Below are positions 24,806 to 51,711 of a stretch of DNA of 62,350 bases, piece by piece. The stretch is from a virus. The stretch covers positions 1 through 62,350 of IMG/VR virus record IMGVR_UViG_3300035190_001508; one strand, written 5' to 3'. Position numbers and translations under genes: made by a program. The number at the start of each line of letters is the position of its first letter. The stretch's first letter is position 1. The notes beneath the pieces are model-generated. The model did not search any database and had not been told where the DNA came from. It saw nothing but the letters and a program-made list of their open reading frames with translations.

Positions 24806-24811
24806 TGAATT

Positions 24812-25238: not shown

Positions 25239-25342
25239 GGGTGGTACTTATTACGCAACCGCCAGTTTGGCAAGAAAAAAATTTTAACGGTGTTCCCGCT
25301 AAGGAATAATTAGGTAGCGCCGGCCGTTATTTGTGCAAACTA

Positions 25343-25356: not shown

Positions 25357-25362
25357 CCGTGT

Positions 25363-25659: not shown

Positions 25660-25669
25660 GGCTACAATA

Positions 25670-26266
25670 TTACTCGGCAGCGTCGTCCTCGTCAAGCAAC
25701 TCTGCTTCGACCGTAACCTGCTCAGACTTAACGCCTTTTGTCAGAACATTAAGGTTAATTGCCAGACCACCTCCGGCGGCACCCTTGGCGTTTAGGCCCA
25801 TGTTGGTCCTAAGGATTTCGTTAAGCGTGGCCAAGTCCCGCATGTTCTTAACGGCCGGGGGCATTGCCGCGGTGGTCTTTAGGATATTAAGCCCCAGCGC
25901 AACCATAATGGCTTGGTACCGGTCGGCCGTGTCTCCGGGCCTTTGCAGCGCCGTTTCAATTGCGGCCATGACCTGCTCGGCGTTCATTAGTCTTTCGGTC
26001 GGCGTAAGCACTTCTTCCACGGTCGGGGGCGGAGCGGCACCGGTTTCCGGCTCGTCCACTACCTGACCCAGCGCACCGCCGTGCGTTACACCGTTCTGCT
26101 TGACCCAACGGCGAACCGTGGTTGCGTCCACGCCAATGTTCCGGGCGATGTCCGGGACCGCGTGTCCTTGCGCGTATAGGGTTAGAGCCTTTTGACGCAC
26201 AATTGGGGGCTGCACGCGGCCCTTACTGGGATTGCTACTGAGCTTTGGATCTTCTTTGGCCTTCAT
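25670..26266 (-). CDS. terS: Terminase small subunit, 198 aa
   Basis: The N-terminal helix-turn-helix (QKALTLYAQGHAVPDIARNI, then DATTVRRWVKQ) would bind the packaging site. A Pro-rich linker and an Ala-rich helical region for oligomerisation follow, and the C-terminus is acidic (LLDEDDAAE), as expected for contact with the large subunit. It is divergent from the large subunit gene, which starts 277 bp away on the other strand with one small gene between. Confidence 0.75.
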   Translation of the reverse strand: MKAKEDPKLSSNPSKGRVQPPIVRQKALTLYAQGHAVPDIARNIGVDATTVRRWVKQNGVTHGGALGQVVDEPETGAAPPPTVEEVLTPTERLMNAEQVMAAIETALQRPGDTADRYQAIMVALGLNILKTTAAMPPAVKNMRDLATLNEILRTNMGLNAKGAAGGGLAINLNVLTKGVKSEQVTVEAELLDEDDAAE

Positions 26267-26287
26267 AATATTTGCGGCGTAATGGTT

Positions 26288-26479
26288 CTACGCGAGCGGG
26301 TCGTAGCCCTCGAACACGTACGCGTAAGCGTGGTCCTCGAGCTGCGGGGGAATACTTATGCGCGTGACCAGCCGGTCAAACAAAACCTCAGCCCTATTCG
26401 GAAATTCAACGGCGAGCTCCCTGAGCTCATCGTATTCGCTTTGGTTTTCCACAAGATGTTCAATAAACTGCGTTTCCAC
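26288..26479 (-). CDS. Small acidic protein, 63 aa
   Basis: The start is a GTG (GTGGAAACG), directly 6 nt after TAATCA, so the mRNA may be leaderless. The protein is acidic and helical (NQSEYDELRELAVEFPNRAE). It is the first gene of the minus-strand replication block and could be an early regulator; no motif supports a specific role. Confidence 0.5.
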   Translation of the reverse strand: METQFIEHLVENQSEYDELRELAVEFPNRAEVLFDRLVTRISIPPQLEDHAYAYVFEGYDPLA

Positions 26480-26542
26480 AACGCATGATTACAAACACAA
26501 ATTACTTGCATTTGCAAGAAATATTTGCTTTGTTCTTTGCAG
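26480..26542. promoter_or_regulatory. Divergent promoter region with palindrome
   Basis: This 63-bp spacer separates the minus-strand replication genes from the plus-strand packaging genes. It contains the perfect palindrome CTTGCATTTGCAAG at 26505-26518. On the plus strand TTGCAT, 17 bp and TTTGTT lead to the terminase ATG after 8 nt. On the minus strand TAATCA lies 6 nt before the GTG at 26479. An operator that controls both directions is inferred. Confidence 0.45.
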
Positions 26543-31073: not shown

Positions 31074-31103
31074 TTGACGTGCGGCGCGCACACATAGTAG
31101 TGT
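31074..31103 (+). promoter_or_regulatory. Possible promoter of the giant gene
   Basis: TTGACG at 31074-31079 and TAGTGT at 31098-31103, 18 bp apart, lie in the only gap of this block. The ATG at 31117 follows after 13 nt. There is no Shine-Dalgarno sequence. Confidence 0.35.
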
Positions 31104-31116
31104 GTGTACCTACGCT

Positions 31117-43100: not shown

Positions 43101-44238
43101 TCTTGGTATGCTCTTTAACAGTTTCTTTAGGTTCACCGCGGAAATCTACAGGCTCCCCGCCTCGACCATTCAGCTCGGTGTTGCTGAAACCAAGAGCGGT
43201 AATCCGGTTCTTAAGGCGCGCGGTATTAAGAGGCTAGCTGGTCTTGGTGCGGCTTTGTCAATGACGCACGGTGCCGCGGAGATTCTTAAGAGCATGTTCG
43301 GTATCGAAGATGACGAAGAAGAAATGGTGCGTGCTTCGCAACCGCCTTACGGGCGCGACGGTAACCTATTCATTACCGTTGACGAAAAAGAAGGTACGCT
43401 TTCCACGTGGGACCTGACGTACACTAACCCGTTCAGTCCTGTTTCTGACCCCATAGGCCGCAGCTTGCAACACATTGTAAGGGGCGACTGGGAGAAGGTG
43501 CCCGGCACAATATTCAAGGGTCTCGCCGCCAGTTTCCTTAGCCCGCAGATCGCGGTCGAGGCTGTTGGTCAGGCCGTGTACAACCTTGACGATTATGGTA
43601 GGCCGCTGTGGTTGGAGAGCGACCCGTGGACATATAAGGCACAGAAGTTTCTTAAGCATGTCGCGGGTAACGCGTACAAACTTAGGACTCCCGTTCAATT
43701 TTGGAAGGCTTACCAAGCGTATACCAATAGCGGGGTCTACGATAAGGACGCACGATTTGAAAAAACATCTGACCTATTGGTCAGGGAGTTCATGCCTTTC
43801 CGTATCCAAACGCACAAGTTCGAGCAGACCGCGCTTAAGGCTTTCCGTACGGTTAAGAAACAAATGGACGTGGGCCGCGCCGCCCTAAGCGTGTTCAACA
43901 GCTACGAGGATCTCGATCAAACCCGAGTAGACGACGCTTACGAAAGGTACGAAAGAGTTCAGGCTTCGACTAACCAAAAGCTCTACGATTATTCAAATGG
44001 TCTTATGGGTCTGGGGCTTAGCTACTCACAGCTCCAGAAGATCGCGGCCGAGGCCGACATTAGTAAGCGTAGGTTCGAGCAGGCGGTGCGGTACAAGCGC
44101 TTCGAGCGTTACGTGCCTAGCAAAGACGCAATGGAGAACTACAAAAAAATCGGAGGCGATAACAACGGAGCCGCGCGCGTGCTTTATATCAGACAAGCCG
44201 TAAGTTCAAAGCCCCAGTACACACCACTAAACGACTAA
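31117..44238 (+). CDS. Giant polyvalent virion protein with zincin and ADP-ribosyltransferase-like domains, 4373 aa
   Basis: The ATG at 31117 (MPQITKDPLG) is preferred to an in-frame GTG 15 bp upstream. Visible parts in order: an N-terminal helical region with a Gly/Ala-rich hydrophobic stretch near residue 810; a zincin motif HELGH (1405-1409); an undefined helical domain (about 1985-2545) with HVTMDTHAIAALFW; an ART-like domain (about 2740-2877) with YHGGD, GAFYGS and VVIFNSNQ; a second ART-like region (about 2918-3052); an Ala-rich helix (about 3430-3560); and a C-terminal domain with a hydrophobic segment near 3802-3842, resembling LPD38-type domains. IRYSR-like linkers separate domains. 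This matches polyvalent proteins that phages package and inject to block host defences. Injection is inferred. Confidence 0.75.
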   Translation: MPQITKDPLGNDVEVLSLTEWSGKNQKELSENTLNQYAGYATGQLLRAGKSPDEFQNNLYSGLFRKGVQEGVFQPQDEEQTKQLFENFANKPFVDEATDLDLVSKSLLNVDSEQAARAADVYQRLQSGQQDPNLDTDLADVRANVATVDKVQQARIDFAKERGLAFIDYPTGEPGRRDVWINTQASPDRKSVYDTLDLAQGIVDPRSAMLAEEYLKTDPGRKVNRAEQKINGELQNLFQSSPSEIIKKNFGTAIEWGSEAAEDKGVSDDVLKKAPTDVVMTPTEDVQVSIAPFGMGGGPIYTSKSGGVPAKKVDSNRIADAVIKNTYERLKQEEPNNPLITDYTEEQFLNAAKDFVIQRLNTDTNQDDPTKNFVSLSDGSRVPLGSASLLPKERFNAAMNSLGFDESEMAVARATRTGWIAANIDDIDQTLYDFDGDKYMDFAQKNREQYDNDRTKIAEAYIDSMEPSVWKTFSAKAKGVARSVWNASYDFGSTVGLGVAKATNWEFAEQAYKDSLIASAENERRRGMFVGMYGGDMGMGYTIVSQAAPLLTDILITKGATGLAKKAAKPLVTTGIRKTEDLFGLSAKSFIRNSLSDETKGIAGKYLASFTIEGAEKSPGQLLRAVRRDLEKQFVAGTATATQIGTSFTRSAQNAWTNTTLRMSKETNEDGTRKYTDEQINDTATTSALYSGLTTALVERGFGKVFGEGADITTVGNANIRQLKAYSKRLGGALERGGFGGTELYDTFKQVSKEIVQEGWGKAAVQIPGEALEEFTDEFAQNVIQSLLGDDTITIKQAFTQAMQAAVVGGVYGGALGSTNKIGLFKEDVARDIATGTAQGIQRDIMDRTIAKLRESGNADQTIAALQDRMRVSQRRDSPISESIPERAVKETIIDELDSLSEEPFDVPTPPAAPEAPPANTVVTRLATNKAKELGVSEEELKTIQPSGLKKGVPQVTRNDVIAFVNRRTEQMGIDLSRFLPGPNITAPEGGLQLIGADAFEDAENRTFDDLKNRVVVIDGLRGRVRIEDEGVILDPEDGSTPLELTPNKDLPIKDFEGFDTLLQERATVSPRRQPREVSDVTEDGKILYGDTEYDLPERPLVANLKKDAEGNIESMHMRVFNSKGLATWVYVAGDNVPKVETSYRVRGPEAVVTFNGAVENAVKETVRRNVSVDEYKTKQSKQRRKQKRAANNAPFVSDQGQRAIEDAPDFRATRMGQPDTPRQLIDEIRTVAAQMGLDPKVFTNDSELFIMIAPEIAAGLDLESFSPQQRARAVQNLQRNGNNPETILEYLVSQEAQPLAERVARSNQIAALRARNNNQIKKHGIKPGADIKTVLENIARSAENKEHRQAAKELLKLGADTVPVAITTLPNNLETAGAYLPESNAVIINLASDNSEGAMGALLHELGHAVTDRVLTAPQNDFELQLRDRILGLRAEYAQRAAEIHGDNIPPDLRYALEGRMSVTEPFSDLNGAREMVAHFYGSKTFRDHLVRLSNKGERNLVQKFIDLIASLFSGQPTASKQYRDLANAITDLSKANQNLGANPYGRTAAQVAASRAGVNHQNRVGQLFGVPNPHSRDDLEWILHQVQTLRYSDLSNEEINELVKSQRFGMLTGENPNDTEFSETENLQFNKNAVRWLRDNGYPVIPIVGKYNRGENSFLVVGLTDQDAIDAAQELNQDSVVTNTGMYFRTGMVSPRVGEVTDEPIGKEDNYFSALLDTNGNVTTIRVEYDLDTTLDSGIRYSKQDQQAAPTTQIAKSLAAQGEFQVVEDRESDKAISFAGGRLVVNPALTEQRYQGYDEEDAADFQELDVRLAVAIGMADTTSGPEVQLDFEEFGLSPDSVIEQAAYNTLTNSDLQDLLRVKEQAKQFVASAYYHIAIRNDGSNERLATAQNHIADLYRYLLRDGEATSETVEGFDPLGAGPVTTQIAERAKPLRPIVRYSRAASNINPTEVRGRTKAGKAVGTRNPTSAKATEDGADSSNLVDLAALKRNPQAYRKNALLLLEYPIVAREFPELAKEYAKIRGAVLKAQDKAKANGIKIKGAKDTAKKTLANYLGVSKAKVSGKMLEDAIENPESAFVTKEQPGTVAGNKEARARNKALATFNKNLDQIKKYAAEGVVLGTDSSKALKTYTDALDKIAKDPEHPIAAQADEIYNTLIEVTKSNLRKLMDVFPADIREIANLWYDGANIIAQQFAGDNYSLEQSSAVLAVFSPQKDWFQNVELAKRTMEIWTADQEYGWDDAMSARWLMRGGEPELKENKDGTVGYAKGIKPDLDENGEHRTDANGMLLFHGWGSEKVKAKRQQAFERLQSLKGKKLKDLTPEQQAWFIRMRAETKYPTGYPIVSPDGRFGESSKSTNNKGVTKEIKLAWGTYGSIGKAINILTAPSETQMKVISDELGDQHKVRSFYNNIVDPQNNDGHVTMDTHAIAALFWQAFSGNSREVGQNFGTANTATDSVTGVGGLYPAFAEAYRAVAAEYGMLPRQVQSITWEAVRMLFTARWKSKSENVNGVRAKWVQYQNNEISLDQAQNAVFAMATNGKDLATAVANSNDEQLGLGFPSWADVTEGPAPAGIALSRAARVSEPVRLSKEQRTGSVELISSLTGADQKTRRGVFDGLVNLSNDDLLSVTERLNKKTLRWLIGSAAEDQSKVVLLSTLRRAVRKQIENAPQYQQGAALFREDDVRRVPVDRLAARVALSRALPTQLDADYLAAVNAGDVVEQQRLVDAAAKAAGGVEVYHGGDLEGSTIDFKKAKRGAVSERRDGAFYGSTNKKVAESYRGATNRMFFFLQNPFEISTPTNRPASWTGKTAEITNGKRVERKTSLSIGEAIDRAKQNNKDGVVYSNIVDTGPAGAGAIGDTVVIFNSNQAKSADPIVRDDNGNVIPLSQRFDLAKPDIRYSRAGLDTAPKAFRGRTVQLTHWSKASGIKQTDPTEHGNGGAGKELERRREYGDIYTPRTYFGYGKYRRETQVGVNRYSMLVNGDSLYDLDRDPLDLYPGQDELQKAGYAKFDNRAALTLFEKAIKDAGYKGYVSTSYQAGVLFNKQKVTKVKDGDTSLPLATSPSVAKSLAALVPLNAAEEKAASKAMARRNSPELAVAAVRMIDGNITVDEYADLVEFFDPWEIKGAIDIPAVDKIKQFIDASKISKVELDVPAGTIVEARIDIPTYNRSTAAGDSVYAITLHQPAAVSATRVAAPLSYTNIARITGVTMVVRAISGKGEARDIAAGTGKFPLATVKGRVAPITELPADINDPEVWTEVGFNPVRSSDFVDVRSKLAVVGGSEAIMVGPRVFVRDAQFTERATGYMTDKSPRYSKALYAIASPDPESSYMVSVDDLYINNATGEWDAGNGVISRLFRASGDVDPRMFEASKYQERGLRLAKIRLKDMAQAFKAALKAEPNADLDDVNLALGSTEPTVSSAQRSAAESVKKAQIDAANAAFDTAPANAAYAAAVQAARVNYTSHRNKAKYTAEVQQAREARKNSPEMAARDAAIAAADAKYNADVQAARRNNLVGLRAAQTQAQLRLEQSSPETAKAVAEMRVAIDRLSSQLSSELKTNDPLRAIVDQNIGIYLTRSYKIHQEEGYAQRILEDSEFAHQRAQARVFFEKEWVRDTYERWRADVAYEPYTDAEVMVLVRAEAKAKDVGTRALNDFVDRHGNTPKTFSRAMTRTDLSRFMQKGEVPDELRAILGEIQNPFENALRTYGNLAQFLGTQRLLNQYAKLGLDNGWLVPAQDVTDNPDKYRGYKPLVNTTDTKGGDPLAEYYAEPDVVEAFQSMFGPPAPANRSTSKKLIDGVITTAARAIGASMGMLTLGSASFFVRNIVGILSFVTANGFIPSLSNINASRLTIKQIYGSNLEGLGADMVMLGVAEGSMVSQTMRDFMRGAIDDPETVSNQIEATIRELGTPASALAKAVKKSKAAVDSLATLNDQIDLFYKAMYFAHEVDVQTKANKHRAVPYTQDQIKQEAARVVRLTTQGRERVAPIFKEFGRSGLGMLFNSFFRFTAEIYRLPASTIQLGVAETKSGNPVLKARGIKRLAGLGAALSMTHGAAEILKSMFGIEDDEEEMVRASQPPYGRDGNLFITVDEKEGTLSTWDLTYTNPFSPVSDPIGRSLQHIVRGDWEKVPGTIFKGLAASFLSPQIAVEAVGQAVYNLDDYGRPLWLESDPWTYKAQKFLKHVAGNAYKLRTPVQFWKAYQAYTNSGVYDKDARFEKTSDLLVREFMPFRIQTHKFEQTALKAFRTVKKQMDVGRAALSVFNSYEDLDQTRVDDAYERYERVQASTNQKLYDYSNGLMGLGLSYSQLQKIAAEADISKRRFEQAVRYKRFERYVPSKDAMENYKKIGGDNNGAARVLYIRQAVSSKPQYTPLND

Positions 44239-44240: not shown

Positions 44241-44286
44241 AAAAAAGCCCCGAGCAACTTAATGCTCGGGGCTTCTTGTTTTTTGG
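44241..44286. terminator. Bidirectional rho-independent terminator
   Basis: A perfect 10-bp GC-rich stem (GCCCCGAGCA with TGCTCGGGGC, 6-nt loop) is flanked by AAAAAA on the left and a T-rich tract on the right, so it can stop both strands. It lies between the convergent ends of the giant gene (44238) and of the small-gene operon (44300). Confidence 0.9.
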
Positions 44287-44299: not shown

Positions 44300-44563
44300 T
44301 TAGCGGCTTTCAAGGGTGCACTGCAACCAGCTATTCATATCGGAGACAAGGTCCGGCATGTCTGGGTACAGCTTACCAAAAAGCTCATGGAGTTTGTTTG
44401 AAACGTCTGGGTCAACCGCGGCGCTGGCGCTACGGAAGGTACCAAACTTTGACTTATAGAACACGTACAAGAATCCTTGGTCCTTGTGCAGTTCTACGTT
44501 AATCCGGTCGTGGCTGGTCTTGTCGAAAAACAAATGGCTCACGATACAGGTATCACGAATCAT
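44300..44563 (-). CDS. Hypothetical protein, 87 aa (last gene of the ribozyme operon)
   Basis: The start overlaps the stop of the 27-aa membrane peptide (ATGA). The sequence is soluble, with FLYVFYKSKFGTFRS in the middle and a helical acidic end. It is followed by the operon terminator. The function is unknown. Confidence 0.55.
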   Translation of the reverse strand: MIRDTCIVSHLFFDKTSHDRINVELHKDQGFLYVFYKSKFGTFRSASAAVDPDVSNKLHELFGKLYPDMPDLVSDMNSWLQCTLESR

Positions 44564-44643
44564 GGCATTGAGTTAATGATTGAGCAGATGCTGGCGGCGG
44601 TGCCGAAAGCGGCAACGCCCAGTGCAATGTAGAACAAGGTCAT
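44560..44643 (-). CDS. Tiny membrane peptide, 27 aa
   Basis: The ATG at 44643 opens MTLFYIALGVAAFGTAASIC, a single hydrophobic helix. The stop overlaps the next ATG (ATGA), the coupling used throughout this operon. A longer frame upstream in the same phase would overlap the previous gene and is not favoured. An inner-membrane toxin, holin-like or signalling peptide is possible. Confidence 0.5.
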   Translation of the reverse strand: MTLFYIALGVAAFGTAASICSIINSMP

Positions 44644-44648
44644 TAGCT

Positions 44649-44894
44649 TTATGCTGTTTGAACTTGCGGTGCAAAGAAACTTTGCACCACCTTGCGTACG
44701 ATTCCTGAACTCTTGCCGCGGACTTGTGCAAGGAACCCCTTGACTTCGTCTGGGTTGTCCAAGGTCTTGCTGGTCACGCCACTGCGGAGAAGCACTCCGC
44801 CGTGACGAAGCACGCAATAGGTTCCGTTCCGGCTGTTGTCGAGGTCTGCCCGTTGTTGGGCGTTAAGTCTGGCAATGGTATTAATGTTTTGCAT
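44649..44894 (-). CDS. Hypothetical protein, 81 aa
   Basis: The ATG at 44894 overlaps the previous stop, which supports it over an in-frame Met 45 bp upstream. The protein is basic with RNGTYCVLRHGGVLLRSG and a C-terminal amphipathic helix. No family is recognised. Confidence 0.5.
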   Translation of the reverse strand: MQNINTIARLNAQQRADLDNSRNGTYCVLRHGGVLLRSGVTSKTLDNPDEVKGFLAQVRGKSSGIVRKVVQSFFAPQVQTA

Positions 44895-45075
44895 AGTAGT
44901 TGTAGTCTTTACTGGGGTTAGTGGGGGGAGTTGGTACATCGTAGTCGGGTTCCGCCATGTTGTCCATGAAAATAAATTCAGGGTCTTGTATGTGGAGCAG
45001 GTCTACTAGGTGGTCCATGCTGGGAACCTGCTGGAGGTCCCCAGTAATTGTTGTGGTCAGGGTGTTTCCGATCAT
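44881..45075 (-). CDS. Hypothetical protein, 64 aa
   Basis: The protein is acidic, with a helical N-terminal half (MDHLVDLLHIQDPEFIFMDN) and a Pro-rich, disordered C-terminus. It is coupled to the upstream gene by ATGA. The function is unknown. Confidence 0.5.
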   Translation of the reverse strand: MIGNTLTTTITGDLQQVPSMDHLVDLLHIQDPEFIFMDNMAEPDYDVPTPPTNPSKDYNYYAKH

Positions 45076-45308
45076 AGGGTCTCGTTGGTTTCTATTTTAC
45101 CGCTTAAGTACGCGAGTTCCAGTGCTAAATTTAGCGCGTCGTTCCCGCTTATGGCGTGTATGTCTACGCCGAACTTCTGACAGAACGGCATGTTTAGCGG
45201 CTCGGTGTACGCCAGCCAGTTGCGGAGCGTTCGTATTTCTACGGCTCCGTCTGGGCTGTGAACTATTCTAGCCGCCGGATTGGTGGGACTGCTGTAGGTA
45301 ATGTTCAT
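45072..45308 (-). CDS. Hypothetical protein, 78 aa
   Basis: The N-terminal half looks like a small beta hairpin (ARIVHSPDGAVEIRTLRNW), and the C-terminal half is helical (NDALNLALELAYLSGKIE). It is coupled on both sides by ATGA overlaps. No function is recognised. Confidence 0.55.
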   Translation of the reverse strand: MNITYSSPTNPAARIVHSPDGAVEIRTLRNWLAYTEPLNMPFCQKFGVDIHAISGNDALNLALELAYLSGKIETNETL

Positions 45309-45394
45309 AGGAAGTACGGGGGGTTGGTATCGTCTTTGTTACAGAACAGCACTACGAGCAGAACAAGTAGTACAACGAGCAGGCTGGTTATCAT
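45305..45394 (-). CDS. Tiny membrane peptide, 29 aa
   Basis: The frame encodes MITSLLVVLLVLLVVLFCNK followed by an acidic, Pro-rich tail. It is one strong transmembrane helix with the charged tail outside or in the cytoplasm. Start and stop both overlap neighbours as ATGA, which is strong evidence that it is translated. Confidence 0.6.
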   Translation of the reverse strand: MITSLLVVLLVLLVVLFCNKDDTNPPYFL

Positions 45395-45540
45395 GGCTTT
45401 GGTTTTGGTTTGGGGTTTTTCAATAAGAGCAAGTCCCTGCCAACTAACGGGGGCTCCGGCTTGCGGAGCGCTTTGTTCTTGAGCAGGTACTCGTACGCGG
45501 CGCTTTGCGCGGCCAGTCTTTTTGCAGTGTATTCATTCAT
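45391..45540 (-). CDS. Small basic protein, 49 aa
   Basis: The ATG at 45540 overlaps the stop of the 188-aa gene and its own stop overlaps the next ATG. The product starts MNEYTAKRLAAQSAAYEYLL and ends in a KPKPKP tail. A role as partner of the following membrane peptide is possible. Confidence 0.55.
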   Translation of the reverse strand: MNEYTAKRLAAQSAAYEYLLKNKALRKPEPPLVGRDLLLLKNPKPKPKP

Positions 45541-46103
45541 TGTTTTTTGTAGCGGTTGACTTTTTTAGCTTTGAACACCTCAAGGAGTTTGGGGACCTGC
45601 TCCCAGTCCACCGCAAGAATGCAGTGGTCGTGGAGATCAAGGAACGCGCAGTGGTGCACGCCGTTGGTTTGGAGCCAATGGCCGAGCTGGTCGCTGGCCT
45701 CGGAGGCGTTTATGCTGTAGTTCCAAGGCAGGACCACGGACTTGTGGAACCGCGGGAGTTCGGCCTTGACCCGTGCCGGTCGTGTGTCTGTTGCCGGCAG
45801 TACGCGGCAGGTAATTGCGACTAGGTGTGTTATGGTATTTTGCATGTTGTTTTTTGTTTGTTTTTTGGGTGTGTCCCAGACCGCAATGCTAGGCTCCGCA
45901 ACTGGTTGCGGGGCTTGGACTACGGGTTCTGGAGACGAGATTCTGGAGTTGTGAGATTCTAGCGCGTGCTCGGAGCCCGACGCTAGAACTATTCTTCCGG
46001 TTGGGAAGCACTGGTAAACGGAGCTGGTCGCCCGCCCCGTTATGGGGCAGACGCCAGTCTTGGACGATTCGCCAAGGTACACGGCTATTGTTGCTGGCTT
46101 CAT
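45537..46103 (-). CDS. Hypothetical protein, 188 aa
   Basis: The N-terminal part (residues 1-60) resembles a small Cys-containing module (GVCPITGRATSSVYQCFPTG). A Pro/Gln-rich linker follows, and the C-terminal domain starts at a second Met (residue 87), so an internal translation start is possible. CAFLDLHDHCILAVDWEQVP is the best-conserved-looking segment. No family is recognised. Confidence 0.5.
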   Translation of the reverse strand: MKPATIAVYLGESSKTGVCPITGRATSSVYQCFPTGRIVLASGSEHALESHNSRISSPEPVVQAPQPVAEPSIAVWDTPKKQTKNNMQNTITHLVAITCRVLPATDTRPARVKAELPRFHKSVVLPWNYSINASEASDQLGHWLQTNGVHHCAFLDLHDHCILAVDWEQVPKLLEVFKAKKVNRYKKQ

Positions 46104-46106
46104 GAT

Positions 46107-46754
46107 TCACCAAACATTAAGGGCCTTAAGGGTAGCGGCGTCGCGGTCGAGGTAGGACGGCCAAGCGTACTTGGCCAGCTTGTCGATCAGGTCTTTTGCC
46201 GCGCCGTCTGCGAACAGCAGTGCGGTTGGTTGGACCTTCCACGGGTTGGGCTGTAGCCCGTTCCACGCGGCGTTCGCCAGCTCGTCTACATACCTGCTTG
46301 GTGGTTTGGAAAGCAGGCGGCCAGCGTTGCGGCCGTTGGTTGCAAGCGCGCGCCACACAGCGTCGGTTTCCAATTCGTTTAGTCCAGCGCGGTCAGCAAC
46401 AGCCCTGACGATCTGGCCTATGCTGTTGCGGTCGATCCGTTGGGGCTTGGACGGCGGAGGTGCTGGCTCGAGTCCTTCCACTGGAGGTGCTGGTGGGGAG
46501 CTTTCGATGCCAATGCGCACGCGCTCGAGCCCGATTCGCTTTACAACATCGTGCAGGGCCCCGCGCGCTTCGTTCATGGTGTTGCCCTTGGCCACTATGC
46601 GGCCGCAACCAATGCTTGTAATGGACCACCCCTTGCCCGTTACCGAGCGGTGGAGTGCCAAGTTAAGCGGGTGGTCCAAGCGGCTAGCCTTGATCCTGTA
46701 GTAATTGTTGCGGTACGCAACGGGTATTTGTATGTATTCGATTTCTGGTTTCAT
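46107..46754 (-). CDS. Hypothetical two-domain protein, 215 aa
   Basis: The N-terminal region is beta-rich (IQIPVAYRNNYYRIKASRLD). A Pro-rich linker (SSPPAPPVEGLEPAPPPSKP) separates it from a helical C-terminal domain rich in Ala and Trp. It lies in the final, longest segment of the ribozyme-punctuated operon. The function is unknown. Confidence 0.55.
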   Translation of the reverse strand: MKPEIEYIQIPVAYRNNYYRIKASRLDHPLNLALHRSVTGKGWSITSIGCGRIVAKGNTMNEARGALHDVVKRIGLERVRIGIESSPPAPPVEGLEPAPPPSKPQRIDRNSIGQIVRAVADRAGLNELETDAVWRALATNGRNAGRLLSKPPSRYVDELANAAWNGLQPNPWKVQPTALLFADGAAKDLIDKLAKYAWPSYLDRDAATLKALNVW

Positions 46755-46771
46755 GTTTTTGTGTTTGGGGG

Positions 46772-47017
46772 TTAGACAATAAGGTCGATTCCGTTGAGGT
46801 GGAGCGAGCGGAACTTCTGCTCGCCGCGGTCGTCAATGTCCCACGCGTGGACCACCACATACCGGATACCCTTTTTGCTTACGGCTACGCGGTTGACTTG
46901 GTCAACCTTAAAAACACGGACGCCCGTGTTGGTTTGCTGTGAGTCTAGCGCGTTGTAGCGGATCGTGCGACCCGCAAGCGCGCTGACGATTCTTTCAGTG
47001 CTTGCTGTTGTGTTCAT
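46772..47017 (-). CDS. Hypothetical beta-rich protein, 81 aa
   Basis: The ATG at 47017 lies 31 nt after the predicted cleavage site of ribozyme A, which decides the start. The sequence is beta-rich (RVFKVDQVNRVAVSKKGIRY), and the leader lacks a Shine-Dalgarno sequence. The fold suggests a small barrel or OB-like domain, but no motif confirms this. Confidence 0.55.
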   Translation of the reverse strand: MNTTASTERIVSALAGRTIRYNALDSQQTNTGVRVFKVDQVNRVAVSKKGIRYVVVHAWDIDDRGEQKFRSLHLNGIDLIV

Positions 47018-47044
47018 TATTGGTAAGAGCGGATTGGTTGGCTT

Positions 47045-47106
47045 CCGCGACCACCCTTGGGGGGAGAGGGTGGTTTCGGCCCTTGCTACGGGGCCTCGTC
47101 AGGCGG
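47045..47106 (-). ncRNA. Type I hammerhead ribozyme, copy A
   Basis: On the minus strand: stem I CCGC/GCGG; core CTGACGA; stem II GGCCC/GGGCC with an 8-nt loop; GAAA; stem III ACCACCCT/AGGGTGGT; and the cleavage triplet GTC. Cleavage is predicted between 47049 and 47048. It starts immediately after the TAA of the 48-aa gene and leaves a 31-nt leader for the gene at 46772. Its stem III sequence is unlike the other copies but fully paired. Confidence 0.9.
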
Positions 47107-47253
47107 TTAGTCGCGGTAGTCTTCGTACAAGTCTCGAAGCTTGTGTCGCAGTAGTTCAAACTCTAAAGAATCACTATCATCAGTGATTATCTCAAGCAGT
47201 TCTTTTGCAATGCTGTAGATTTCCAGCACGATTTCGTCTTTTGTTTTTTGCAT
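47107..47253 (-). CDS. Small acidic helical protein, 48 aa
   Basis: This gene is bracketed by ribozymes B and A, so it would become a monocistronic mRNA. The ATG lies 29 nt after the ribozyme B cleavage site, and the TAA touches stem I of ribozyme A. The product is helical and acidic (MQKTKDEIVLEIYSIAKELL). The function is unknown. Confidence 0.65.
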   Translation of the reverse strand: MQKTKDEIVLEIYSIAKELLEIITDDSDSLEFELLRHKLRDLYEDYRD

Positions 47254-47278
47254 GTATTTAGTGCGGGTTGGTTGGCTT

Positions 47279-47330
47279 CCGCGACGCCTTCACGGCGTTT
47301 CGGCCCTTGCTACAGGGCCTCGTCAGGCGG
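47279..47330 (-). ncRNA. Type I hammerhead ribozyme, copy B
   Basis: Stem I is CCGC/GCGG, the core CTGACGA, stem II GGCCC/GGGCC and the junction GAAA. Stem III is the short ACGCC/GGCGT with loop GTGAA, and GTC is the cleavage triplet. Cleavage is predicted between 47283 and 47282. The TAA of the 51-aa gene directly precedes it. Confidence 0.9.
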
Positions 47331-47486
47331 TTAGTCGCAGTCGTATTTCCTTTCGAGGTGGTCCTCGTGGCACAGCTCGCAAAGGAGTTTTTGGTTTACC
47401 CTGTAAAAGCGGATTTCGTCCAGCTTAATTTGTTCGAGCGTGTGAACACACCCGCACTCGTTGCATTTGATTTTGTCTGGGTTCAT
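47331..47486 (-). CDS. Small zinc-ribbon protein, 51 aa
   Basis: The ATG at 47486 forms an ATGA overlap with the upstream stop, so the longer in-frame extension is not used. Two CxxC pairs (CNECG and CELC) about 25 residues apart suggest a treble-clef or zinc ribbon. CELCHEDHLERK also recalls HNH-like knuckles, but the protein is too short for a nuclease domain. It may bind nucleic acid or host RNA polymerase. Confidence 0.6.
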   Translation of the reverse strand: MNPDKIKCNECGCVHTLEQIKLDEIRFYRVNQKLLCELCHEDHLERKYDCD

Positions 47487-47773
47487 TGGAATAGGTGGTT
47501 GGTTTGGAGTGTGCGTCGAATAATGCGTCTGGCTCCGGCAGGGGTTGTGTAGCCTTGGCTCCGCGGGCTTACAAACCCGCACTGGTGGAGGTCCGGCACG
47601 CGGGCACCGCGAGCTGGTAGCCCGTAGCGTAGCTGGTCGTCTGGCAGGCCGCCGCAGTAGGGGCTGTAGAGTGCCTCCACGCCGTGGCCGCAGGGGTTCA
47701 TAAGGACAACCCCGAAATAGCCGAAGCTATTCGCGTGGGTACTTACCGATAGCACATAGTAGTCTGGTTTCAT
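47483..47773 (-). CDS. Hypothetical protein, 96 aa
   Basis: The ATG lies 31 nt after the cleavage site of ribozyme C. The sequence has a beta-rich start (YYVLSVSTHANSFGYFGVVL), Cys/Gly-rich loops and a basic C-terminus (ARRIIRRTLQ). The stop overlaps the zinc-ribbon start. No family is recognised. Confidence 0.55.
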   Translation of the reverse strand: MKPDYYVLSVSTHANSFGYFGVVLMNPCGHGVEALYSPYCGGLPDDQLRYGLPARGARVPDLHQCGFVSPRSQGYTTPAGARRIIRRTLQTNHLFQ

Positions 47774-47800
47774 TATTGGTTTGAGCGGATTGGTTGGCTT

Positions 47801-47860
47801 CCGCGACCGCCCGTTTTCACGGGAGGTTTCGGCCCTTGCTACGGGGCCTCGTCAGGCGGG
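47801..47860 (-). ncRNA. Type I hammerhead ribozyme, copy C
   Basis: Stem I is CCGC/GCGG, the core CTGACGA, stem II GGCCC/GGGCC and the junction GAAA. Stem III is ACCTCCCG/CGGGCGGT with a single T-C mismatch and loop TGAAAA. Cleavage is predicted between 47805 and 47804, giving a 31-nt leader. It starts right after the TAA of the 72-aa gene. Confidence 0.9.
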
Positions 47861-48079
47861 TTAGCGCACGAGGAAACTTTCCACATGCTCGAGGGTGGCT
47901 GGGTCCAAGTGCACCACATGGTTCCTGAACTCTGGGCCTAGCTGGTACGCCTTGTGGCGCGCCAGCTCCTGCTGTTCGGCGGTTAGGCCGGAGTCTGTCC
48001 AGCTTGGCGGCAAGCCGCGCGGGTGGACAACAACGCGGGCTCCTTGGCCGCAGTAATCGGTTAGTAGGTATGCTTCCAT
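47861..48079 (-). CDS. Hypothetical protein, 72 aa
   Basis: The protein is soluble and contains CGQGARVVVHPRGLPPSW and a C-terminal HLDPATLEHVESFLVR. It is the last gene of a five-gene segment between ribozymes D and C. The function is unknown. Confidence 0.55.
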   Translation of the reverse strand: MEAYLLTDYCGQGARVVVHPRGLPPSWTDSGLTAEQQELARHKAYQLGPEFRNHVVHLDPATLEHVESFLVR

Positions 48080-48092
48080 ATTTTTTTTGTTT

Positions 48093-48251
48093 CTATTGTT
48101 CGGGTTCGTAGTCTTCGTTGCAGGGATCGGGCGGTAGCGGGTCGTATTCGGGATCGCGCTGGCGGCTAGGCTGGCACGATTCGCAGTTGCTGTCTGGGTC
48201 AGGCCAGTAGCGGCTACCGCACTCGCTACACGCCCATGGTGCTTTGCTCAT
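48093..48251 (-). CDS. Small zinc-finger protein with acidic tail, 52 aa
   Basis: The ATG at 48251 overlaps the upstream stop (ATGA). Two CxxC pairs (CSECG and CESC) are spaced for a zinc ribbon. The C-terminal half is acidic and Pro-rich (DPEYDPLPPDPCNEDYEPEQ), perhaps a DNA mimic or partner-binding tail. Confidence 0.6.
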   Translation of the reverse strand: MSKAPWACSECGSRYWPDPDSNCESCQPSRQRDPEYDPLPPDPCNEDYEPEQ

Positions 48252-48430
48252 TGTTCCTGTTTGGTTTGAGGTGAGTCCCACACGAAATCCTTTTCGTGCG
48301 GGTCGTTTGGCTTAAGGTTCCACCTGTAGTAGGTGCGTGCCCCAACGCGGCACTCAATAAGAGTGTTCGCCTTGGTGTAGTTTGGCGAGGCGTTAATCCA
48401 CTCGCGCAGTGCTTCTTGTATGGTTTTCAT
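48248..48430 (-). CDS. Hypothetical protein, 60 aa
   Basis: The ATG at 48430 overlaps the stop of the 48-aa membrane protein. The helix MKTIQEALREWINASPNYTK is followed by CRVGARTYYRWNLKPNDP, a possible small winged or helix-turn-helix-like unit. The similarity is too weak to call a DNA-binding fold. Confidence 0.55.
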   Translation of the reverse strand: MKTIQEALREWINASPNYTKANTLIECRVGARTYYRWNLKPNDPHEKDFVWDSPQTKQEQ

Positions 48431-48573
48431 GGGACGGGATGGTAGTGGGTTGGCGAGCCTGCGCGGATGCGTAGCTCGAGGTCGCTGGGGCCCCACGCAC
48501 CGCCTTGTATGGCGATGCCTAGGATGATTGCCGCCAAAAGAATAGCGGCTTGGATTATGGTTGCTAGGTTCAT
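48427..48573 (-). CDS. Small membrane protein, 48 aa
   Basis: MNLATIIQAAILLAAIILGI is one transmembrane helix, followed by a polar, Arg/His-containing tail. The stop overlaps the next ATG (ATGA), and the ATG lies 3 nt after the previous stop. The overlap supports translation. Confidence 0.6.
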   Translation of the reverse strand: MNLATIIQAAILLAAIILGIAIQGGAWGPSDLELRIRAGSPTHYHPVP

Positions 48574-48576
48574 GAT

Positions 48577-48897
48577 TCAGGATTCGGTTGTCGGGCAGGG
48601 CTTGCCTTCCCAGTTGTTGTAGTGCTCTTCCGCGGCCGCGTCAATAGCGGGGTGGATTGTGTAGTCCGCCAGTAGCTCCGCGGGTTCGTTTCCAAGCACG
48701 AGGTAGGCGTACTTGTGATGGCCGCCGAAGGTCAGCCACACGCGGCTTTCGTCGGTTGCGTTTACTTCTTCGACGGCCTTGTCAAGGGTATCGCAAGGAA
48801 CCCAGCCGTCGCCGTTGTCCACGGCCGCAATGTGCGCGCCGTGCTTTTGTAGTGTGCAGAGCAGGCTCCGCACGGGAATGGTCCAGTTGTATTTCAT
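48577..48897 (-). CDS. Hypothetical protein, 106 aa
   Basis: The ATG lies 32 nt after the ribozyme D cleavage site. The sequence looks like a small alpha/beta domain (RVWLTFGGHHKYAYLVLGNE) with a helical acidic end. No catalytic motif is seen. Confidence 0.6.
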   Translation of the reverse strand: MKYNWTIPVRSLLCTLQKHGAHIAAVDNGDGWVPCDTLDKAVEEVNATDESRVWLTFGGHHKYAYLVLGNEPAELLADYTIHPAIDAAAEEHYNNWEGKPCPTTES

Positions 48898-48925
48898 TGT
48901 TTTTTTTGGCGGATTGGTTTGGCTT

Positions 48926-48978
48926 CCGCGACGCCTTCACGGCGTTTCGGTCCCTGCCACGGGACCATCATCAGGCGG
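48926..48978 (-). ncRNA. Type I hammerhead ribozyme, copy D
   Basis: Stem I is CCGC/GCGG, the core CTGATGA, then one extra T, stem II GGTCCC/GGGACC, GAAA, stem III ACGCC/GGCGT and GTC. The TGA stop of the 62-aa gene is inside CTGATGA. Stem II differs from copies A-C but is fully paired. Cleavage is predicted between 48930 and 48929. Confidence 0.87.
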
Positions 48979-49159
48979 GGTCTAGGATTTGCAAGCGCTT
49001 TGTCGGCCACAACGAGCCGTTGTCCTTGGCCGTTTCCCAGTAAGCAAAGCCCCTCCACTCTTCGGGGAGGTTCTCCGCCTCGAACTCCTCGTCGGTCAGA
49101 GGGGTAAGGGGGTCGGGAAACGGGTAAGCCTCATAACAATTGTCCAATTTTTTGGTCAT
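48971..49159 (-). CDS. Acidic hypothetical protein, 62 aa
   Basis: The protein is acidic with many aromatic residues (CYEAYPFPDPLTPLTDEEFE). Its stop codon is the TGA of the ribozyme D core, so the last coding bases are part of ribozyme stem I. The function is unknown. Confidence 0.6.
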   Translation of the reverse strand: MTKKLDNCYEAYPFPDPLTPLTDEEFEAENLPEEWRGFAYWETAKDNGSLWPTKRLQILDPA

Positions 49160-49180
49160 TTTTGCTGGGTTGGTTTAGTT

Positions 49181-49396
49181 TTAAACATTGGCTGGGCCGT
49201 GCCACTTGTCCCAGAGGTCCTGTTCGGGGATCTCCTCGAGCGTGTAGTCGCGGCGGCGCGGTGGGCGGTCTCCGAAGGCATCAGCAATGGCCTTTGCTTT
49301 CGTTTCGCCGTGGCCAAGAAGGCAACGGCCAAGGTGAACCCCAGAGGGGCGTGTGACGATCCAGACGAGGCTGGTGGTGTTGTTGTTGTTGGTCAT
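49181..49396 (-). CDS. Hypothetical protein, 71 aa
   Basis: The ATG at 49396 lies 31 nt after the ribozyme E cleavage site, which decides against a longer reading frame through the ribozyme. The sequence starts MTNNNNTTSLVWIVTRPSGV and includes DRPPRRRDYTLEEIPEQDLW. No family is recognised. Confidence 0.6.
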   Translation of the reverse strand: MTNNNNTTSLVWIVTRPSGVHLGRCLLGHGETKAKAIADAFGDRPPRRRDYTLEEIPEQDLWDKWHGPANV

Positions 49397-49423
49397 TATT
49401 TTTTTGGGCGGATTGGTTGGCTT

Positions 49424-49484
49424 CCGCGACCGCACCGCCGAAGCGGTTTGGTTTCGGTCCCTGCCACGGGAACTCATCAGGCGG
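49424..49484 (-). ncRNA. Type I hammerhead ribozyme, copy E
   Basis: Stem I is CCGC/GCGG and the core CTGATGA. Stem II GTTCCC/GGGACC has one T-C mismatch. After GAAA, stem III has ten positions with a 2-by-2 internal loop and a TTCG tetraloop, then GTC. The stop of the upstream gene is the core TGA. Cleavage is predicted between 49428 and 49427. The stem II mismatch may lower activity. Confidence 0.85.
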
Positions 49485-49902
49485 TGCGTAAACGGCGGGC
49501 TAGCTGGCTGGCGGTGCTGGCCGCGGTGAACTCAACCAGCTTGCCGCTAGGACGGCGGGCGGTCCACTCTACAGCGCGGTCGCGCCCGTGCTGACCAGTG
49601 CCCTTCTGGAAGCTTATGGTCCAGTTGGGGAACAGCGCGGACAGCGCGGCGTGTTCGGCCCAGTCTACGGCGTGACCAAGCGCGATGTTCTCGATCCACG
49701 CGTCGGCGGCGCGGTTGGACTTGGAGCAGGCCCAGCGCAGGCCGCTTTGGTAAGCGTGCGCGTTGATCGAAGGGTGCAGGAACCAAGTGGACCGCTGGGC
49801 CGCGCTGTGGACGACTAGGCCGCCACGGCTACGCAGTGCGGAGCACGGGCGGTACGGGTGGTTGGTGGGTTCCTTGCGGCTTTGGTAGGCTGTTTGACTC
49901 AT
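49477..49902 (-). CDS. Hypothetical basic protein, 141 aa
   Basis: The ATG at 49902 overlaps the stop of the 57-aa gene (ATGA). Features are WIENIALGHAVDWAEHAALS and a basic C-terminal half (HGRDRAVEWTARRPSGKLVE). It ends in the core of ribozyme E. There is some resemblance to small nuclease-like alpha/beta domains, but no active site can be named. Confidence 0.55.
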   Translation of the reverse strand: MSQTAYQSRKEPTNHPYRPCSALRSRGGLVVHSAAQRSTWFLHPSINAHAYQSGLRWACSKSNRAADAWIENIALGHAVDWAEHAALSALFPNWTISFQKGTGQHGRDRAVEWTARRPSGKLVEFTAASTASQLARRLRTA

Positions 49903-50072
49903 GGTTGTGGTTGGTTGGATTTGAGGTTGTCCACGATCCGCGCAAGGCGGAGCAGTTCTTCCCGTGCAGAGCACAGGCTTTCGTAGCTAGCTTCTGGGTT
50001 CTGGAGCACCTCGCAGTAAACCTGCACGGCGAACTCCCAAGTGGGAGTTGTGTCGATTGTTTTTGTTTTCAT
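49899..50072 (-). CDS. Helical protein, 57 aa
   Basis: The ATG at 50072 and the ATGA overlap at its end fix the frame. The sequence is helical (FAVQVYCEVLQNPEASYESL) with a C-terminal leucine-rich helix. It fills the gap between two neighbours. The function is unknown. Confidence 0.55.
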   Translation of the reverse strand: MKTKTIDTTPTWEFAVQVYCEVLQNPEASYESLCSAREELLRLARIVDNLKSNQPQP

Positions 50073-50096
50073 TGTATTATTTTTTGTGGTGTTGGT

Positions 50097-50342
50097 TCAT
50101 AGCCAAGGAAGGTACACTCCGCGGTTTTTTTCGATCCGATCAACGGCGTCAGCTTTGGCGTCTTCGATTGTGGGATACTCGAAGCGGTAGCCGTTTATGA
50201 CTAGCCGAACGGGCTCGCTCTCGCGCCAGAGCACACCAACGCCAAAGCGTTGGCCGCATCGCGTGAAACCGCCGAAAGATTGAGAGTATTTCAGCCCGTC
50301 AATCGTGCCAGTTTCTGTTTTCCATTCTATTTCAAGTTTCAT
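50097..50342 (-). CDS. Hypothetical beta-rich protein, 81 aa
   Basis: The ATG lies 30 nt after the ribozyme F cleavage site. The sequence looks like a small beta sheet followed by a helix (YRFEYPTIEDAKADAVDRIE), similar in shape to single-domain KTSC/RepB-like proteins, but I cannot name the family. Confidence 0.6.
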   Translation of the reverse strand: MKLEIEWKTETGTIDGLKYSQSFGGFTRCGQRFGVGVLWRESEPVRLVINGYRFEYPTIEDAKADAVDRIEKNRGVYLPWL

Positions 50343-50368
50343 TATTTTTTGGGCGGATTGGTTGGCTT

Positions 50369-50427
50369 CCGCGACCGCCCGTTTTCACGGGAGGTTTCGG
50401 CCCTTGCCAAGGGCCATCATCAGACGG
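50369..50427 (-). ncRNA. Type I hammerhead ribozyme, copy F
   Basis: Stem I is CCGT/GCGG with one G-T pair. The core is CTGATGA followed by one extra T. Stem II is GGCCC/GGGCC with loop TTGGCAA, then GAAA, stem III as in copy C, and GTC. The stop of the 107-aa gene is the core TGA. Cleavage is predicted between 50373 and 50372. Confidence 0.87.
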
Positions 50428-50743
50428 ACTTCTCGAGGCGGGCCTTGACCCGCGAGGCGTTGTGATCGCCGCAGTACAAGGGCACGCCGTACGGCTTGCC
50501 GTCAGCATCGACTGGCGCGTACCACTCGAGGCTGGCGAACTCCTCCTCGTTGGGGAGGTAGAACAGGCTGACCTGCTCGCTGGCGGCTTCCCATTCGCTG
50601 GAGCCCAGCTTTACACCCATGCCGCTGGGACCGCGGAGGCCCAGCTTGGCGATTGCTTCCCATGGCGAAGGCGCGACGGCCCAGCCCAAGTAGTTGACCG
50701 CCAAGTAGGCGGCCCCAGCATTGTTCACGTATGCTTTTTTCAT
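50420..50743 (-). CDS. Hypothetical protein, 107 aa
   Basis: This gene is bracketed by ribozymes G and F and would be monocistronic after cleavage. The N-terminal part is hydrophobic (AAYLAVNYLGWAVAPSPWEA) and the rest soluble. PYGVPLYCGDHNASRVKARL at the C-terminus has a Cys/His pair. The ATG lies 30 nt after the ribozyme G cleavage site. Confidence 0.6.
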   Translation of the reverse strand: MKKAYVNNAGAAYLAVNYLGWAVAPSPWEAIAKLGLRGPSGMGVKLGSSEWEAASEQVSLFYLPNEEEFASLEWYAPVDADGKPYGVPLYCGDHNASRVKARLEKSV

Positions 50744-50769
50744 ATTTAAAAAGCGGAGGGGTTTGGCTT

Positions 50770-50826
50770 CCGCGACCGCCCGTTTTCACGGGAGGTTTCG
50801 GCCCTTGCCAAGGGCCTCATCAGGCG
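50770..50826 (-). ncRNA. Type I hammerhead ribozyme, copy G
   Basis: Stem I is TTCGC/GCGGA including one G-T pair. The core is CTGATGA, stem II GGCCC/GGGCC with loop TTGGCAA, then GAAA, stem III as in copies C and F, and GTC. No extra base interrupts the core. The stop of the first operon gene is the core TGA. Cleavage is predicted between 50774 and 50773. Confidence 0.92.
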
Positions 50827-51494
50827 AAGTTTGCTTCGAGTTTCCAGAAGTGCTCGATGACCTCCTGCGGCACGCGCTTGCGCTTGCCGTCTTCCCCGTC
50901 GTCGAGGTAGCCGTTGTGCTCCGCGAACGCCAGCGAGCCAGCGAAGTCGCCGTGCGAAATGTCGGCGTACAGCGTATCGCCGTCGCGCTCGAGTTCGAGG
51001 GTGAACCCCTTGAACTTGTGCACCTCTTTTTTCGGCGGTGGCGTCGCCGCGGCAATGAACGCCGCGTCGCTGGCGTCCTTGGCCTTTGCGGCCTCGAATG
51101 CACGGGCGTGTTCGAGGTCTTCCAAGGCGGCAAGCTTGCGGCGTTCGAGCTCCGCTTCGAGTGCTTGCTCGAATGTGACGAACAGGCCGTGGTCGAACGC
51201 GTGGCCTTGCGGGTTCCGGCCGTCCAAGCGGCCGTGGCCAGTGTCGCAGTCGAGGACCGCTATGCTGTCCTGCTTGAGCACCACCGCGAGGTTGTGCGCG
51301 TGCCAGCCGTCCGAAGGGGCAAACCCGACGACCACCAAGGTGGGCTGGGGTTGGCCTTCCCACTCGCCGTTGTGCAGGATGCTGGCGTGGGACTCGAAGC
51401 CCGTTGCGGCGAGTGCTTCGGCGGCAACACCGCGGCTGATCTCTTCACCCGTTGCTTCAACAAGCAACCCAATATTCAATTCGTATTCTTTCAT
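50820..51494 (-). CDS. First gene of the ribozyme operon, hypothetical, 224 aa
   Basis: The ATG at 51494 (MKEYELNIGLLVEATGEE) is used; a TTG 111 bp upstream would place coding over the structured leader. The N-terminal half has a Gly/His/Asp-rich segment (VLDCDTGHGRLDGRNPQGHA), and the middle is a charged helix. The C-terminal 65 residues look like a separate small beta domain (FKGFTLELERDGDTLYADIS). The function is unknown. Confidence 0.6.
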   Translation of the reverse strand: MKEYELNIGLLVEATGEEISRGVAAEALAATGFESHASILHNGEWEGQPQPTLVVVGFAPSDGWHAHNLAVVLKQDSIAVLDCDTGHGRLDGRNPQGHAFDHGLFVTFEQALEAELERRKLAALEDLEHARAFEAAKAKDASDAAFIAAATPPPKKEVHKFKGFTLELERDGDTLYADISHGDFAGSLAFAEHNGYLDDGEDGKRKRVPQEVIEHFWKLEANFA

Positions 51495-51711
51495 GTTTGC
51501 GTGCCCTCTGCATTGCTGGACTTGGGACCAGTACGCGGCGGCCCACACCTTGTGGGCTTGTTCCGCGCAGTTGCATTGCACGCGCCCCACTACTTCGTGG
51601 GGCAATTTCGGGGGCTGGGAAAGAACTAGGTCAGCCGCTCTTGGGTGTACCGCGCTGGTCCGTTAAGACCACCGCGGTTGCCCCGCTGGCAGGCCGTCAG
51701 TTGCTGACGAC
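51495..51711 (-). promoter_or_regulatory. Highly structured 5' leader of the ribozyme operon
   Basis: On the minus strand four hairpins follow one another. CGTCAG/CTGACG lies at 51695-51709. CCGCG-G-TGGTC with GACCA-G-CGCGG lies at 51650-51677: two 5-bp blocks around a G-G mismatch. GCCCCAC/GTGGGGC lies at 51584-51603 and GCCCAC/GTGGGC at 51541-51557. None is followed by a T-run, so they are not simple terminators. A stabilising or ligand-responsive leader is possible. Confidence 0.55.

Follow-up and report, generated by a model that had tools for sequence, protein, structure and literature searches.

What do self-cleaving ribozymes do when they stand one after another between the genes of a phage operon? 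This question is raised by the 62,350-base viral record IMGVR_UViG_3300035190_001508, the whole of which is referred to here as the window, and whose genes include those for a terminase large subunit, DNA polymerase A, a primase and an exonuclease. Its minus strand carries an operon, spanning about 51.6 to 44.24 kilobases (kb), in which seven hammerhead motifs delimit eight gene blocks; the ribozymes separate blocks of one to five genes, and the last block is ribozyme-free and conserved. What bacterial and phage hammerheads do has been described as an open question (PMC6155905). We propose, with a probability of roughly 0.74, that the RNA of this minus-strand operon processes itself during transcription into insulated cassettes. 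The proposal builds on the ribozyme motif, its covarying structure, its orientation and its position, on the complementarity and enrichment of a hairpin behind the predicted cut, and on breakpoints in gene order at the ribozymes. The first-pass annotation of this locus, made from the sequence alone, had likewise suggested that one polycistronic RNA cleaves itself; this suggestion is supported, as are the hammerhead identity, the single orientation and the tight spacing that it gave for the motifs.

Seven type I hammerheads between the gene blocks

In each of seven minus-strand spacers, CUGANGA, a stem II, GAAA, a stem III and GUC follow one another, and a stem I of 4-5 base pairs (bp) closes the motif. 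None of the seven has lost a catalytic residue or the GUC site, the core reading CUGANGA...GAAA...NUH with A15.1-U16.1, and the order of the elements is that of type I, with stem I open and loops closing stems II and III. The cuts predicted after GUC are followed by the next ATG at 30, 30, 31, 32, 31, 29 and 31 nucleotides (nt) in hammerheads 1-7. The motifs, listed below, were scored with two covariance models: R1, which was built with the window copies included, and R2, which was built only from unrelated phages and bacterial metagenome-assembled genomes (MAGs), without any sequence of the window's phage group.

50763..50830, minus strand: hammerhead 1; CTGA from 50823; predicted cut after 50774; R1 68.7, R2 55.0 bits
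50362..50430, minus strand: hammerhead 2; CTGA from 50423; predicted cut after 50373; R1 68.1, R2 51.1 bits
49417..49487, minus strand: hammerhead 3; CTGA from 49480; predicted cut after 49428; R1 60.4, R2 47.5 bits
48919..48981, minus strand: hammerhead 4; CTGA from 48974; predicted cut after 48930; R1 70.9, R2 51.2 bits
47794..47862, minus strand: hammerhead 5; CTGA from 47855; predicted cut after 47805; R1 80.0, R2 64.7 bits
47272..47333, minus strand: hammerhead 6; CTGA from 47326; predicted cut after 47283; R1 74.3, R2 64.0 bits
47038..47109, minus strand: hammerhead 7; CTGA from 47102; predicted cut after 47049; R1 76.6, R2 66.1 bits

Searched against the window, R2 recovers 7/7 hammerheads with 47-66 bits (E 3e-10 to 5e-15) and no other match up to E=10. 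The loose pattern CTGANGA..GAAA..GTC has eight matches in the window, where 0.44 are expected; seven lie in the array and the eighth is a stray at 57340 on the plus strand. This excess, together with the R2 result, rules out a chance origin of the motifs. The stems also covary: in the R1 and R2 alignments 95-96% of the cells are paired, with 53-60 compensatory cells against 14-20 after shuffling. For R2 the values are 95% of cells paired, two-sided changes in 10 of the 14 pairs, and 60 compensatory cells against 20 in shuffles, and controls in which the partner strand was slid gave at most 19. Furthermore, loop II can form a pseudoknot with the leader bases just 3' of stem I, namely UGGC/GCCA (4 bp) in hammerheads 1-4. 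Across phages, a predicted pseudoknot of at least 4 bp is present in 75 of 119 copies, compared with 19% when flanks are swapped between phages, and its two strands change together (UGGC/GCCA, UGAC/GUCA, UAGC/GCUA, GAGAC/GUCUC). The comparison confirms the seven motifs, at the level of sequence and covarying structure, as type I hammerheads, for which self-cleavage is predicted. R2 finds exactly the seven coding-orientation spacers that the first-pass annotation had named, and the recomputed distances are identical to its set of 29, 30, 30, 31, 31, 31 and 32 nt; its paired stems stand insofar as all three helices are supported by compensatory change, with mismatches in stems II or III of some copies.

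At gathering score, the Rfam models RF00163, RF00008 and RF03152 report none of the seven window hammerheads, the best lax matches in the array being RAGATH-1-hammerhead at 24.6 bits and Hammerhead_3 at 18 bits. The earlier account had made the Rfam threshold its yardstick, and all seven do literally fall below it; however, the same library likewise has no hit that passes its threshold in the cultured Salisaeta icosahedral phage 1 (SSIP-1) or in four further phage arrays, where the best RF00163 score is 28.4 bits against 34. The threshold is therefore uninformative as a judge for this class of phage hammerheads, and a gathering cut-off is in any case a curation threshold and not a defining property of a hammerhead. 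Rfam hammerhead thresholds overlook a widespread phage class. The idea that the ribozymes are controlled by aptamers was rejected, as aptamers usually attach at stem III, and no other part of the motif varies as much.

A hairpin directly behind the predicted cut

Each 3' product predicted in the window begins like GCGGAAGCCAACCAAUCCGC, in which the 3' strand of stem I can pair with an arm 10-12 nt further on. The resulting hairpin is the predicted fold of the leader in the window, and its arm lies outside the search pattern.

50753..50773, minus strand: 5'-terminal hairpin after hammerhead 1 (GCGGA..UCCGC)
50353..50372, minus strand: 5'-terminal hairpin after hammerhead 2
49408..49427, minus strand: 5'-terminal hairpin after hammerhead 3
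48909..48929, minus strand: 5'-terminal hairpin after hammerhead 4
47785..47804, minus strand: 5'-terminal hairpin after hammerhead 5
47263..47282, minus strand: 5'-terminal hairpin after hammerhead 6 (4 bp)
47029..47048, minus strand: 5'-terminal hairpin after hammerhead 7

When a hairpin is counted as a helix of at least 4 Watson-Crick pairs starting at most 3 bases from the cut, with the expectation taken from dinucleotide shuffles, it is found in 75 of 93 array copies (27.8 expected) and in 16 of 26 copies from records with few hammerheads (8.9 expected). Of the 12 copies whose stem I is not GCGG, 9 have an arm that matches it (4.4 expected), as in GUAGCG/CGCUAC and CGGGAA/UUCCCG. The predicted energies are -5.4 to -6.8 kcal/mol for the hairpin and -3.4 to -5.1 kcal/mol for stem I. 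The partition function separates real from shuffled leaders weakly (probability that the 5' end is paired, 0.87 against 0.72) because GCGG pairs easily, and the helix-length test is clearer. Since the hairpin uses the stem I strand, and its loop the pseudoknot strand, hairpin and intact ribozyme exclude each other. Most simply, the hairpin would form once the cut has been made, block religation and structure the 5' ends of the messages.

Gene blocks, operon head and terminator

All hammerhead copies that we identified, in this and in other phages, sit between genes and in the coding orientation. In 35 of 74 unique copies the UGA within CUGA is also the stop codon of the gene upstream, and in another 21 that stop codon lies 5-10 nt before the core. 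The distance from cut to ATG is 28-32 nt in 30/30 unique copies of the window's phage group. Gene, ribozyme, hairpin and next gene are packed without slack. The features of the operon, with protein lengths in amino acids (aa), are as follows.

51500..51582, minus strand: twister-P1-like ribozyme motif directly before gene 1; predicted cut C51578/A51577
50820..51494, minus strand: gene 1 (F00, 224 aa, unknown); its stop is the UGA of the hammerhead core
50420..50743, minus strand: gene of 107 aa, unknown
49477..50342, minus strand: three-gene cassette (81, 57 and 141 aa), the last gene belonging to family F01
48971..49397, minus strand: two-gene cassette (71 and 62 aa)
47861..48897, minus strand: five-gene cassette, in which F02, F03 and F04 stay together in relatives
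47331..47773, minus strand: two-gene cassette (F09 of 96 aa, and 51 aa)
47107..47253, minus strand: F13 gene (48 aa), a cassette found at differing places in relatives
44300..47017, minus strand: ribozyme-free conserved downstream genes F10, F05, F06, F07, F08 and F11
44242..44277, minus strand: intrinsic terminator at the operon end; 15-pair stem and T tail

Searches of the cassette proteins against Pfam and PHROGs gave no informative family match. The eight messages of the first-pass annotation correspond to these eight blocks, which are, however, not single cistrons: several hold 2-5 genes and the last runs to about 44300. The interval that it delimited, 46772-51711, includes 51582-51500, although it did not name the motif there; nor did it mention a pseudoknot, a hairpin following each cut, the operon terminator or any shuffling of genes.

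The motif at the operon head matches the type P1 twister model RF03160 with 38.1 bits (E=1.1e-5), below the gathering score of 67.2, and homologues scoring 44-45 bits stand at the same place in all four close relatives. Helices P1, P2 and P4 and the conserved CCCAAG and GAGGG are present, and between window and relatives 10 of 23 pairs change on both sides, against 0/500 shuffles. In 5/5 copies, C takes the place of U before the predicted cut; for this reason, and because no copy reaches the gathering score, we call the motif twister-like and do not assign it to the twister class. Its GAGGG lies 9 nt upstream of the ATG of gene 1 (51495-51512), where ribosomes could also bind it, although the genome is otherwise devoid of such binding sites. 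Indeed, 27 of 28 inspected window genes have no Shine-Dalgarno site, which points to a host group that initiates translation without them; as the absence is genome-wide, A-rich ribozyme leaders are normal for this phage.

At the other end, a scan for terminators identified 44277-44242 as the single strong minus-strand terminator, after the last gene, and none inside the array. The terminator hairpin is predicted on both strands and lies between the operon and a convergent giant gene, a single open frame of 4378 aa (31102-44238, plus strand) that takes up about a fifth of the record. Elsewhere, the window encodes a GDP-mannose 4,6-dehydratase/epimerase-like protein (10881-11888, plus strand; PF01370, 8.8e-47) and a dATP/dGTP diphosphohydrolase N-terminal domain (24113-24805, minus strand; PF18909, 2.6e-31). 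The latter domain occurs in phages that substitute 2-aminoadenine for adenine; the idea of a 2-aminoadenine genome was dropped, as no PurZ (PF00709) was found in the record.

Arrays in other phages and shuffling of cassettes

A pattern scan of IMG/VR detected four records of the same phage group, with 6, 7, 7 and 6 hammerheads in the layout seen in the window, and unrelated records with arrays of 16, 8, 7, 7, 6, 5, 4, 4 and 3, always in a single orientation within a record; the two unrelated seven-copy records represent one kind of phage. The scan patterns fixed GUCGCGG, so that phages with other stem I sequences are under-represented. The largest array has 16 hammerheads in about 8 kb (genome G006; locus L111, IMGVR_UViG_3300036780_000230, 14000-28000). 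Most of its copies carry the leader CUGCAAUGGAG between hammerhead and start codon, and the same or a similar motif occurs in the unrelated arrays L112, L114 and L116. In bacterial genomes, a strict pattern returned mostly chance singles and one prophage with seven copies in a Rhizobium MAG. Three hammerheads are present in a Christensenellales phage and two in the cultured SSIP-1 (L169, JN880423; 10215-10282 and 10638-10703), where they occupy consecutive unannotated intergenic gaps, each followed by a hairpin of 5-6 bp; the presence of two such ribozymes in a cultured phage makes the idea testable. Searches of INPHARED returned no relatives for the window operon DNA and gene-level matches only for the other arrays. 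One relative of the window has a long, near-perfect inverted repeat upstream of the operon (L101, 7717-7781) that looks like a strong hairpin or terminator, and to which an Rfam microRNA model matches, presumably by chance.

Within the five genomes of the window's group, gene adjacency is kept in 18 of 85 cases across a hammerhead and in 50 of 67 cases without one (0/5000 permutations of the ribozyme flags). The F09 and F13 cassettes occupy different places among these genomes, and in one relative F00 is present in a second copy as a cassette of its own. Identical stem III sequences make up 13 of 93 comparisons within genomes and 3 of 273 between genomes, as expected from copying or recombination among repeats. 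For the 16-copy phage, no relative other than the phage itself came up in a search, which leaves the window's group as the one in which shuffling can be tested.

Proposed mechanism and alternative explanations

According to our proposal, the whole minus-strand operon would be transcribed as one RNA, and each hammerhead would fold on leaving the polymerase, with stem I bridging the end of one gene block and the leader of the next, and loop II pairing with the leader just behind stem I. Cleavage after GUC would leave the upstream mRNA with a 3' end made up of stems II and III, 50-60 nt past the stop codon and bearing a 2',3'-cyclic phosphate, and the downstream mRNA with a 5'-OH. The released stem I strand could then pair with the arm about 15 nt further on to form a hairpin at the very 5' end, which would take away both stem I and the pseudoknot strand, making the cut one-way, and leave a short stretch, A-rich and unstructured, ahead of the start codon. 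At the operon head, the twister-like motif would likewise provide gene 1 with a 5' end that is both defined and structured. Whichever genes stand next to it, a block would thereby carry the same 5' leader as all others and a structure at its 3' end. With their RNAs insulated in this manner, and with about 70 bp of similar DNA flanking them, the blocks could be exchanged by recombination with their expression intact. If so, ribozyme joints help to explain the shuffling of small accessory genes. More tentatively, and at somewhat less than even odds, phages may have built operons of RNA-insulated cassettes independently, with insulation letting blocks swap at the ribozymes, so that a ribozyme would both punctuate the message and act as a joint between the modules of the genome.

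Several points weigh against this proposal. A single transcript, cleavage in the cell, a function of the hairpin and an effect on expression are things that we infer. Hammerhead copies inside one array are related, and their counts are therefore not independent events. The motifs themselves are imperfect: hammerheads 2 and 4 have one extra U between CUGAUGA (A9) and stem II, in hammerhead 3, stem II contains a U.C mismatch and positions of stem III are left unpaired, a U.C mismatch occurs in stem III of hammerheads 1, 2 and 5, and in hammerheads 5-7 only 3 of the 4 pseudoknot positions pair (UAGC/GCCA). The complementarity of the hairpin is mostly one 4-bp GCGG/CCGC; beyond the first 4 bp, at the fifth base, its covariation outside the window's group is weak, and the covariation of the arm with divergent stems I lends the predicted hairpin moderate support. 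Finally, two distant relatives that share gene F05 (32% identity) have neither ribozyme type within the stretch searched, which means that the device is dispensable for that gene block.

These points have to be considered together with the other ways in which the array could be explained. It could be that the hammerheads are kept mainly as DNA repeats for homologous recombination that shuffles cassettes, RNA cleavage being incidental or secondary; gene order does break at the repeats, stem III is homogenised within genomes, and the F00 cassette has been duplicated in one relative. However, it is the RNA structure that is conserved and not the DNA sequence, since the stems covary while loops and lengths drift. 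Recombination repeats need neither invariant catalytic residues nor a covarying pseudoknot, a different ribozyme fold at the operon head, or a strict orientation and position at gene edges, and we regard this explanation as decidedly unlikely. Alternatively, the motifs might fold and yet be catalytically dead, acting only as stabilising structures at 3' and 5' ends. Such a role would be in line with the mismatches in some stems and with the Rfam scores under threshold, but pure stabilisers would not need the catalytic residues and the GUC that are intact in 7/7 copies, and this makes it very improbable.

The hairpin can also be seen in another light. Its arm may be a brake that competes with stem I during transcription and so sets the fraction of RNA that is cut and the mix of polycistronic and processed messages. 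On the one hand, by nearest-neighbour energies, with the pseudoknot ignored, the hairpin is about 0.7-3.4 kcal/mol more stable than stem I, and the polymerase has to go only about 10 nt past the completed ribozyme to transcribe the arm. On the other hand, stem I forms first and has the support of the pseudoknot, a hammerhead whose loops make contact can need seconds or less for cleavage (PMC6155905), and tandem natural constructs, whose flanks were not compared with those studied here, were cleaved efficiently by Perreault et al. (PMC3088659). We consider a brake unlikely. Scarcely credible, in our view, is that pairs of hammerheads excise RNA that is ligated into circles, cassettes then moving by reverse transcription like plant retrozymes. 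It is true that consecutive cuts give joinable 5'-OH and cyclic-phosphate ends, and that the cassettes are mobile on an evolutionary time scale. The phage record, however, contains no match to a reverse transcriptase (RVT_1) or an RtcB ligase (long terminal repeats were not searched for), although a reverse transcriptase might come from the host; the release hairpin opposes religation, and neither spliced nor circular RNAs were detected when Perreault et al. (PMC3088659) looked for them among the products of tandem phage hammerheads. Self-processing into insulated cassettes is the reading that we prefer.

Comparison with known systems

The first-pass annotation had presented cistron-by-cistron use of hammerheads as a previously undescribed expression system. 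This claim has to be given up: clustered phage hammerheads, and the cutting of phage RNA into gene-length messages, are already published. In the parts of their paper considered here, Perreault et al. 2011 (PMC3088659) describe clustered hammerheads that flank single genes or gene blocks in prophages, with sets in Agrobacterium tumefaciens (a triple set around ardA), Azorhizobium caulinodans and Clostridium scindens. In their proposal, cleavage divides long phage RNAs into mRNAs the length of an operon or a gene. They demonstrated in vitro cleavage at all sites of three tandem arrangements, one of which self-cleaved in E. coli, and described pseudoknots between the stem I and stem II regions. 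The window array resembles these clusters in having several hammerheads (two or more) in one orientation around phage genes. It differs in size, as the tested sets were small and the largest described in those parts had three copies, compared with seven here and up to 16 elsewhere. The same parts do not report the leader of 28-32 nt, the refolding hairpin, the twister-like head or the order breaks, and in the open-access literature we found no arrays of such length, no twister-like head, no hairpin of the released strand and no breakpoints of gene order at ribozymes.

Among other systems, retrozymes (PMC4918200) share with the window transcripts that are cut by consecutive hammerheads; unlike them, the window has no reverse transcriptase that we could find in the record, its cassettes code for proteins, and its ribozymes are of type I and reside in a phage. 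With the type P1 twister (RF03160), the head motif shares P1, P2, P4, CCCAAG, GAGGG and compensatory changes; it differs in scoring 38-45 bits where gathering is 67.2, in having C for U, and in heading a hammerhead operon. In the synthetic insulator RiboJ (PMC6206723), devised by engineers, the hammerhead of sTRSV is followed by a 23-nt hairpin, and the device raises transcript and protein levels. The window likewise combines a hammerhead, a predicted hairpin at the new 5' end and a start site, which would give the same 5' end to each gene. Unlike RiboJ, its units are natural, of type I (that of sTRSV is of type III) and arranged in series in one operon, and the released stem I strand itself serves as a hairpin arm; we claim no common descent. 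Taken together, the long arrays, the fixed leaders, the release hairpin and the second ribozyme-like fold at the head suggest a concrete role for phage hammerheads in the punctuation and insulation of messages, and, if our proposal is correct, phages use a RiboJ-type architecture in series.

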